A stretch of 64,000 nt of DNA, from the NCBI RefSeq assembly GCF_009601685.2, contig NZ_CP045701.2, positions 1,240,001 to 1,304,000 of the forward strand, written 5' to 3'. Source of the stretch: Pseudomonas brassicacearum. Its GTDB lineage: Bacteria; Pseudomonadota; Gammaproteobacteria; Pseudomonadales; Pseudomonadaceae. Shown in pieces: positions 48,350-55,760 of this stretch. The notes under the pieces were generated by a model. The model ran no database searches, had not been told where the DNA came from, and saw nothing but the letters and a program-made list of their open reading frames with translations. The stretch's first letter is position 1, and each line of letters starts with the position of its first letter. A program made the translations under genes and the position numbers.

Positions 48350-48745
48350 TCAGAGCGGAAGGTAGGCCTTCACACCGGCGATCACGCCTTGCATGTCTTC
48401 AGAGCCCAGGCGAGGAACGAAGTACTCTCGACCCTTGGATCGAGTCTTTCTGTGCAGCTTGTCCAGACGTTCAAAACTCACGGTATAGATCATGTCGCAC
48501 TTTACCCACAGTTCTTTGTAGCCATCGGACTGGAGGGGATTGGTGCGGAGCAGGTGGTGCCAGTCCTGCTGAGTCTGTGGCGTTGTGGAGGAGATCGGCA
48601 CCACGGTACAGAGCTTGCGACTGTGTGTGGCAGTAGGGGAGATCACCACCACCTTGCGGATCTTCAGCATTTCAGGCGCAACAAAGCCCCGCGTGAAGTC
48701 ACAAAGAAGAACATCGCCTTGCTTGGGATGGTAATAAAGAGGCAT
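48350..48745 (-). CDS. PemK/MazF-family toxin, no protein antitoxin adjacent
   Basis: 131 aa. PemK-type core: KQGDVLLCDF at the start, EMLKIRKVVVISPT strand, CTVVPISST near residue 48, and VKCDMIYTVSFERLDKL. These are the usual MazF/PemK ribonuclease blocks. Known members are mRNA interferases held in check by a co-encoded antitoxin. Here I see no antitoxin: the next gene is convergent, and upstream 482 bp hold no reading frame of 60 codons or more. Instead a structured RNA with a terminator ends 12 bases before the ATG. GAGG lies seven bases before the start. Confidence 0.85.
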   Translation of the reverse strand: MPLYYHPKQGDVLLCDFTRGFVAPEMLKIRKVVVISPTATHSRKLCTVVPISSTTPQTQQDWHHLLRTNPLQSDGYKELWVKCDMIYTVSFERLDKLHRKTRSKGREYFVPRLGSEDMQGVIAGVKAYLPL

Positions 48746-48756
48746 TCCTTATCCTC

Positions 48757-48960
48757 ATAAAAAAGCAAAGCCGCCCGAAGGCGGCTTCAATCGACACGCA
48801 GTTGAGCTTGCTTCGCCCTTTCTGCGCCGCTGGGTCAACCCCGAGAGGGACCCAGACTCCTGCCAGCTTTCGCTGGTGACAGGGTCGATTATGGCTACCG
48901 GCGATAGCGAATTCAAGCCAGCTTGAACCCTCGTAACAGGGTTGAATGAGATATGTCGGT
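48757..48960 (-). ncRNA. structured leader RNA upstream of the pemK-like toxin gene
   Basis: Minus-strand element. A 7-bp stem AATCGAC/GTCGATT (48789-48795 with 48884-48890) closes a multi-branch loop. Inside are CTGGGTC/GACCCAG (48830-48836 with 48849-48855) and a CCTG-CCAGC/GCTGG-CAGG hairpin with a GAAA-type loop (48859-48883). Upstream, 5' hairpins use GCTA/TAGC and AACCCT/AGGGTT. It ends in a terminator. Boundaries at the 5' end are a guess. A PemK-associated RNA motif has, as I recall, been reported by comparative genomics; I could not test whether this is that motif. Confidence 0.65.
48759..48787 (-). terminator. intrinsic terminator inside the pemK leader
   Basis: On the minus strand AAGCCGCC, loop TTCG, GGCGGCTT, then TGCTTTTTT: an 8-bp GC-rich stem with a stable UUCG loop and six U. 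It ends 13 bases before the toxin ATG, so toxin expression needs read-through or a regulated switch. Confidence 0.88.
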
Positions 48961-49017
48961 GTACAAAGTAAGCGAAATCAATGGTTTGGCGTTCGCGGTA
49001 TGTTTTATGTCTTTTCT

Positions 49018-49227
49018 TGTCTGAGTAGACAGATCGTGGTCTGTCAGACGCACCGAAGTTTCCGACAAGTTTTTAAGGTTGTCCGTCGGAAGCGAGGGCT
49101 CTAGCCTCTGGGTGTCGCTGCCAATTCAGCGACCGGACGTGAGAATCCGAACATCTCTAGGAGCACGGGCTTCTGCACAATCCAAGTGCAGGGTTTACAT
49201 CTTCAGCTCTAGGGAGCAAGCAATTCG
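49018..49227 (+). promoter_or_regulatory. structured 5' leader of the DUF6124 gene
   Basis: Plus-strand leader. GTCCG (49081-49085) and CGGAC (49134-49138) close a three-way junction holding GAGG/CCTC (49094-49108) and a perfect GTCGCTG/CAGCGAC hairpin (49114-49133). A further CTGCAC/GTGCAG hairpin lies at 49173-49191, and GACAGA/TCTGTC near 49028-49045. CTCTAG occurs three times (49099, 49155, 49207), the last two next to GGAG or GGGAG ribosome-site-like sequences. Confidence 0.55.
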
Positions 49228-49587
49228 ATGATTAAAGAACCCCAAAATCCACCAAAACCTGCCTCCACTTTCCCCTACGGCGACTACGCCCCGGAAAAGC
49301 TGCAAGAGGCCGCTGACCGTGTGCTGGATCAATACCTCAAACCTGACGACAGCAAGTCAGAACCCAAGCCCTCAGTGCAGTTATTCACTGTGGCTGACGG
49401 TATCGACACCGAAGTGTTGCTGGCCAACCTCAGTGAAACCCTGGCTTCGGCCAATGCAATGCTCAACGACCTTGCCTTCGATCAGGACGGCTCGCGACGA
49501 CATGTAGCGTTGGGAGTGGCCCAGATGATTGAGTTGGGGATGTTGTTGGCGAACAAGTGCCTGGATCGGGTAGAGCTTCGGGTGTGA
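49228..49587 (+). CDS. DUF6124 family protein
   Basis: 119 aa. Matches the small Pseudomonas-restricted DUF6124 pattern: Pro-rich start (KEPQNPPKPASTFPYGDYAP), AADRVLDQYL helix, then FTVADGIDTEVLLANLSETL and a helical C-terminus (HVALGVAQMIELGMLLANK). Function unknown; genomes often carry several copies. GGGAG lies eleven bases before the ATG. Its last two codons already belong to the left copy of a 300-bp duplication. Confidence 0.82.
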   Translation: MIKEPQNPPKPASTFPYGDYAPEKLQEAADRVLDQYLKPDDSKSEPKPSVQLFTVADGIDTEVLLANLSETLASANAMLNDLAFDQDGSRRHVALGVAQMIELGMLLANKCLDRVELRV

Positions 49588-55591: not shown

Positions 55592-55760
55592 TCCGTTTTC
55601 GCCCTTGCTGTGGTATAAAATGCGCCGCTTTCCGGGGATGACCCCGTAAGCTTAAATCCACACACGTGTCGACACGATGACCTGGGTGCCTTTGGCTATA
55701 TAGCCGCTGGTTGGTCATTGGGATACGTGGAGGCCAAACCCGACTTATCAAGGAACTATC
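55592..55760 (+). promoter_or_regulatory. rpsB promoter and structured leader
   Basis: TATAAAAT (-10 type) at 55614-55621 is followed by about 140 bp of leader with CGGGG/CCCCG (55633-55646) and GGCTATATAGCC (55694-55705). In E. coli, S2 represses its own rpsB-tsf mRNA through the leader; a similar control here is inference. AAGGA lies just before the rpsB ATG. Confidence 0.55.

Follow-up and report, generated by a model that had tools for sequence, protein, structure and literature searches.

How is a PemK/MazF-family toxin kept in check when no protein antitoxin is found beside its gene, and what is the folded RNA that precedes it? These questions are raised by a locus of Pseudomonas brassicacearum, which we analysed within a window of 64,000 nt (the whole stretch of DNA considered here: NZ_CP045701.2, assembly GCF_009601685.2, positions 1,240,001 to 1,304,000 of the forward strand). 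The initial annotation had offered three roles for the RNA, namely an RNA antitoxin, an attenuator and a regulatory leader. Of these, the antitoxin is the best supported, while attenuation or a leader function fits poorly as a general role. With a probability of about 0.6, we interpret the locus as a two-gene toxin-antitoxin module, in which a folded RNA with its own promoter and terminator inhibits a PemK/MazF-type ribonuclease in a type III-like manner.

The open reading frame behind the RNA is indeed a PemK gene, with a PF02452 domain at E 1.8e-15 (57.5 bits, cut-off 23.1), and it is rightly called a lone toxin: it is the sole PF02452 match in its genome, in which no MazE-family antitoxin exceeds the cut-off (the best match, with 23.3 against 24.7 bits, lies about 56 kb away). 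Scanning 29 relatives of the toxin against Pfam returned PemK_toxin only, in 29 of 29. Residue R30 is invariant across 29 relatives and falls within the stretch that is aligned to MazF by profile, which makes it probable that the toxin is an active endoribonuclease. Its fold is probably that of the PemIK/MazEF family, given that Foldseek, run with the toxin model, returned MazF-type entries throughout the best 50 rows; confidence in the AlphaFold model itself is low (mean pLDDT 66.1, with residues 1-27 below 50). The flanks of 31 loci, counted after setting aside readings over the toxin and the RNA themselves, hold no recurrent protein family beside the toxin, except in small lineage groups (dnaN/recF in three). 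In these three (L066, L067 and L082) the PemK-RNA pair lies between dnaN-like and recF-like genes. A protein antitoxin encoded elsewhere had been named beforehand as grounds for refutation, and none came up, either in the flanks or in the MazE-family search of the genome. The idea that a PemK gene with an abutting protein gene would have no RNA was dropped, as Fluviibacter, Polaromonas and Aquitalea have both.

The elements of the locus are collected in Table 1. The promoter scan gave one site at the locus, compared with 0.4 expected in shuffles, and from its position we infer that the RNA starts near 48881 on the minus strand, just 5' of hairpin 1. The UUCG-loop terminator noticed in the initial annotation was recovered; about 12 bases separate it from the toxin start region, an order that is kept in the class A relatives described below. 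A palindrome, TTCAAGC-TG-GCTTGAA (48912-48927, minus strand), overlaps the −35 box of the RNA promoter and is a possible operator; the CAAGC..GCTTG form occurs in many class A promoters and is absent from L024, L051 and L058. A 53-aa open reading frame runs across the RNA, and a coding role for it was rejected because of gaps of 1-2 nt in the same three loci.

Table 1 Features of the toxin locus, in window coordinates
Feature	Position	Strand	Basis and remarks
PemK/MazF-family toxin gene, 131 aa	48350..48745	-	PF02452
Predicted RNA gene, about 120 nt	48758..48881	-	Start from promoter, end from terminator, both inferred
Terminator tail UUGCUUU, complementary to the loop of hairpin 3 (possible pseudoknot)	48762..48768	-	Loop-tail covariation
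Intrinsic terminator of the RNA, directly 5' of the toxin	48766..48789	-	Scan; nearly invariant in 29 relatives
Conserved structured core, 90 nt, model R1	48791..48880	-	Alignment; best R1 match in the genome
Hairpin 3, with inner helix and GAAGCAA loop (48814-48808)	48796..48827	-	Outer helix 99.3% of cells paired, one two-sided pair
Hairpin 2	48830..48855	-	10 pairs, 99.2% of cells paired
Hairpin 1	48863..48876	-	5 pairs, 100% of cells paired, one two-sided pair
Sigma-70-like promoter, TTGAAT (48916-48911), 17 nt, CATAAT (48893-48888)	48888..48916	-	Scan

No Rfam 15 family matched the RNA. The sole candidate on its stretch, rnk_pseudo (E 1.5), ends on the terminator and was rejected. Two other Rfam elements lie in the window: a c4-a1b1 element (C4 antisense RNA target; 49101-49153, plus strand, 56 bits), upstream of a DUF6124 gene at 49228-49587, and a t44 RNA (55641-55739, plus strand, 71 bits). 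The window holds no match to C4 RNA; in L026, C4 and c4-a1b1 adjoin each other.

To evaluate the structure, base pairs were counted in an alignment of 24 Pseudomonas relatives with the three-hairpin structure, leaving out the MAFFT alignments of distant RNAs, in which the hairpins were misplaced. Pairing is preserved in 99.5% of 600 cells, with two-sided changes in 3 of 25 pairs; the covariation score was matched by none of 500 shuffles, and the number of two-sided pairs by 12 of 500. One pair of hairpin 2 occurs as AU, GC, GU and CG among the relatives, and the inner helix of hairpin 3 is invariant within class A and varied across lineages. The compensatory changes across homologues, whose absence had been set out as a reason to discard the structure, are thus present, and we regard the structured RNA as real, mainly on the strength of this covariation. 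Folding energy is weak evidence, because the excess is absent for the 90-nt core (z −1.21) and modest for the predicted 123-nt transcript (z −2.15); the 204-nt stretch originally drawn gave z −3.29 (0/200 shuffles). Of that drawing, the two inner hairpins correspond to hairpins 1 and 2, and a third, longer one was found beside them. The 7-bp closing stem (48789-48795 with 48884-48890) did not survive: only 51.7% of 203 cells pair in 29 relatives, with no two-sided change, pairing does not exceed that of shuffles, and the −10 box is overlapped by the 5' half of the stem. Nor do the hairpins drawn further 5' belong to the conserved RNA; both sit within the −35/spacer region of the promoter, so they are probably absent from the transcript.

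The 3' end of the RNA may fold back on hairpin 3. Many of the terminator tails are of the CUUUGUC or CUUUGC type rather than a plain U run, and the tail type follows the loop type (Fisher p 1e-4): loops ending in ACAA go with a UUGU tail in 15 of 18 cases and with UUGC in 2, whereas loops ending in GCAA go with UUGC in 7 of 10 and with UUGU in none. Loop and tail match at 22 of 31 loci, against 12.0 with permuted tails (0/5000), and at 17 of 26 after removal of near relatives (4/5000); the match is absent at 9 of the 31. The set of 31 comprised 38 loci minus L054 and L065, for which the terminator was not found, and minus L024, L026, L039, L058 and L154, dropped beforehand as near relatives. 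In the window, the loop and the tail could form 7 bp, and tail bases 48768-48766 could alternatively extend the terminator stem. These observations point to a possible pseudoknot in which the tail pairs with the loop of hairpin 3; shared ancestry may account for some of the signal. The proposed pairing makes a simple test by compensatory mutation feasible.

The relation of RNA and toxin was followed in 398 Pseudomonas genomes, 75 of which contain toxin matches, mainly of two classes: class A, orthologues with 72-100% identity, and class B, with about 42-48%. Two loci with another PemK kind (31-34% identity) and no RNA, L158 and L159, were left out of class B. The RNA lies upstream of 18/18 intact class A toxins, and class A RNA is found at E <1e-15 in 35 of the 398 genomes. 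In front of class B toxins there is no match to the class A RNA; a related RNA lies 62-80 nt past the end of the toxin match, on the same strand, at all 46 of the 46 intact toxins. Its structure is equally well preserved, with 98.9% of 371 cells paired, three two-sided pairs, and a covariation score reached by 0/500 shuffles. Promoters scoring at least 8 of 12 precede 33 of 34 class A RNAs, at a constant place (6% of shuffles), and 24 of 41 class B RNAs (4% of shuffles), for which the promoter ends 6 nt 5' of the RNA. Many class A toxins (L014, L024, L039-L053) apparently begin with TTG, or with CTG in L024, so their translation may be weak.

Outside Pseudomonas, model R2 found the RNA after PemK in Kingella, Neisseria, Citrobacter, Sphingomonas, Azospirillum and Fluviibacter (E 3e-8 to 8e-6). 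The class A model R1 found it upstream of the toxin in Alysiella (E 1e-4) and downstream in Fluviibacter (E 2e-7), and as the Fluviibacter RNA is matched by both R1 and R2, it ties the class A and class B RNAs together. The association of RNA and toxin is therefore kept across changing positions, upstream in class A and Alysiella and downstream in class B and six other genera. A third model, R3, gave weak matches to distant RNAs (E 0.007-0.08 for 8 loci) and none at L057, L063, L064, L068, L073 and L080. We also used a descriptor, consisting of [AG]AG[AT]C, a hairpin, and a second hairpin that contains a short inner helix and has a loop of the GAYNNCAA type, which located the RNA at 26 of 39 toxin loci and in none of 7800 shuffled strand-regions. 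All 26 matches are on the toxin strand, 22 downstream and 4 upstream. Since the descriptor was devised after many of the 39 loci had been seen, it was applied unchanged to ten distinct later loci, of which 7 matched (L167, L168, L172, L173, L174, L184 and L185; 2/5600 shuffles). Visual inspection of the three that it missed showed the loop in L170, a variant loop in L175 and, on the opposite strand, a partial form in L169. Left out of the ten were L177 (a short partial match), L176 (toxin and flank as in L175), L178 and L179 (which duplicate the Kingella and Neisseria loci) and the unscanned L180-L183.

Among the 13 of the 39 loci without a descriptor match, the RNA was recognised in Alysiella (L054) by R1, in a Vibrio phage (L079) weakly by R3 and in L164 by eye. 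The phage record, PQ189291.1, placed in Tectiliviricetes, has at 1495-2129 a PemK gene followed by a probable RNA of this family (E 0.026), and on the E. coli plasmid p5217 (L078) the RNA is apparently on the opposite strand, behind TTGATA-16-TATAAT, with weak model support (E 0.08). Of the records, 17 of 34 plasmid ones and 1 of 11 phage ones were taken in. The PemK-RNA pair was also found in IMG/VR viral contigs, and scans of viral contigs with the RNA pattern and the toxin of the window found nothing. In an even sample of the phylum (398 genomes), the RNA lies beside 10 of 11 toxins with E <1e-15, L063 being the one at which it was not found, and R2 gave matches only in four Pseudomonas genomes of this sample. 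Models R1-R3 do not cover the whole RNA family, because the descriptor finds RNAs in other genera where R2 gave none. With more distant PemK genes (L069, L070, L083, L162, L163, L165 and L166) the descriptor gave no match. Short CCCGAAAGGG-type hairpins and terminators lie 3' of distant PemK genes in L162, L163, L081 and L166, and may be diverged members of the RNA family.

The order in which the two genes are lost was compared in Pseudomonas. Among the 35 genomes with class A RNA at E <1e-15, 17 have no intact toxin, the gene being present as remnants, interrupted by a stop codon (L020) or not found, and six further genomes lack a class A toxin and carry a weaker class A RNA (E 1e-13 to 1e-7). 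Six class B loci have kept the RNA with the toxin broken or missing (L006, L121, L122, L137, L157 and L160), and the two that have lost it (L155 and L156) both have a broken toxin. For classes A and B together, 64 intact toxins have the RNA and none is without it, 23 RNAs have no intact toxin, and at 8 loci neither is whole. The Fisher p of 6e-5 (0.03 for class A alone) is a guide only, because shared ancestry is uncorrected, L121 and L122 derive from the phylum scan, and of the two RNA classes only class A was scanned for across all 398 genomes. The RNA may thus outlive the toxin, and no intact toxin was seen without the RNA, a direction that fits an antitoxin; it is suggestive only, because a short RNA is a smaller mutation target than a toxin gene and relatedness is uncorrected.

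If the RNA is an antitoxin, it would bind the toxin and block its nuclease, as type III RNA antitoxins do, possibly in a form closed by the loop-tail pseudoknot described above. In this lineage toxin mRNA would also be kept low, as the terminator would restrict transcription running on into the toxin gene; the downstream placement of the RNA elsewhere shows that this effect is not its sole role. A stop in transcription, for example on phage infection, could free the toxin. The arrangement in the window and in class A, with the terminator so close to the toxin start region, would suit a cis-acting leader or attenuator. In that case the toxin mRNA would begin with the RNA, which would govern termination or translation of the toxin, perhaps because the toxin binds or cleaves it. 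This explanation fits poorly with the other lineages, because in most relatives the RNA comes after the toxin and has its own promoter, and in one or two it is apparently on the opposite strand: it follows every intact class B toxin, most descriptor matches are downstream, RNAs remain where the toxin is gone, and the L078 RNA apparently faces the toxin. We judge it quite improbable, and conclude from promoter and position that the RNA is a separate gene, not just a toxin leader, with its own promoter and usually downstream in the same PemK subfamily.

The tight co-occurrence and the conserved loops, in turn, fit any RNA-protein complex, including one in which the RNA is a working part of a PemK ribonucleoprotein (a guide, a sensor or a substrate), needed for activity and not for inhibition, and the occurrence of the pair in the Vibrio phage record and in viral contigs would suit such a role. 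However, intact toxins that had lost a required RNA should persist as harmless relics, and 0/64 were seen, while both class B loci without the RNA have broken toxins; a ribonucleoprotein is therefore unlikely. A separately promoted small RNA adjoining a toxin could also be an antisense regulator (type I or VIII-like), which pairs with the toxin mRNA or represses the toxin promoter. At 16 loci the RNA pairs no more strongly with the toxin start region than with shuffled targets, judged by duplex energy (z −1.8 to +1.4), in a weak test that covers the start region only and in which the class A region includes the terminator itself; we give antisense regulation very little credence. Inhibition of the toxin by the RNA thus remains our preferred reading.

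Its extension to the other lineages is, in our estimate, a little better than an even chance: a widespread class of PemK/MazF-type ribonucleases would be restrained by one pseudoknotted RNA without repeats, transcribed from a promoter of its own and placed before, after or facing the toxin gene, on chromosomes, plasmids and phages of alpha-, beta- and gammaproteobacteria. In that case, protein-based annotation would be blind to the RNA partner of many "orphan" PemK genes, and a partner would be supplied for PemK/MazF toxins annotated as type II without a recognisable protein antitoxin. As the RNA comes after the toxin in most lineages seen, searches only in front of toxins would miss it.

Compared with known systems, the module shares with type II PemIK/MazEF the toxin domain and probably the fold, and differs from it in having no conserved adjacent protein partner among 31 relatives and no MazE-family match over the cut-off in the genome. 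A "pemK" RNA motif, mentioned in the initial annotation, does exist (Rfam RF02913), and was reportedly described in a 2017 paper; its suggested match to the RNA of the window did not materialise. Both are RNAs associated with PemK genes, after which the curated family is named, but RF02913 has 61 positions and matched neither the RNA of the window nor its relatives (none at the gathering score, at E up to 5 in 1 kb, or at E up to 1 in 10 relatives), although a distant relation may exist. Run on the genome itself, RF02913 returned nothing, and the controls were silent as well. In a figure legend, the pemK RNA is cited to illustrate RNAs that are predicted close to defence genes (PMC11061315). 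In the open-licence PMC literature searched, as far as its accessible text goes, no RNA partner of PemK is described; an earlier description may exist.

A functional parallel is offered by AbiF/RCd22 of Clostridioides difficile, whose RNA, in the excerpted text, binds the protein and is active both in cis and in trans (PMC12373285). There too a structured non-coding RNA with a terminator stands in front of a toxin gene; by that description, the toxin belongs to another family, and the RNA carries two motif copies and lies upstream of the gene. There is also a likeness to the type III systems ToxIN, CptIN and TenpIN, described in the available part of the source as an RNA repeat array, a terminator and then a toxin of one of three families (PMC5086642). 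On that account, the window has the same order of promoter, RNA, terminator and ribonuclease of MazF-like fold, and also a possibly pseudoknotted RNA (PMC5086642). The type III gene order holds in the window and class A, and not in class B and most other relatives. In contrast to type III, no tandem repeats were found in 48700-49100, and the toxin carries PF02452 in 29/29 relatives, with a model that matches MazF, and is not ToxN, CptN or TenpN. With repeats and toxin family both differing, we do not file the module as type III, though it may still work alike; it would then widen RNA-antitoxin systems beyond the search definition of a repeat array before a toxin, as given in the same partial source (PMC5086642).
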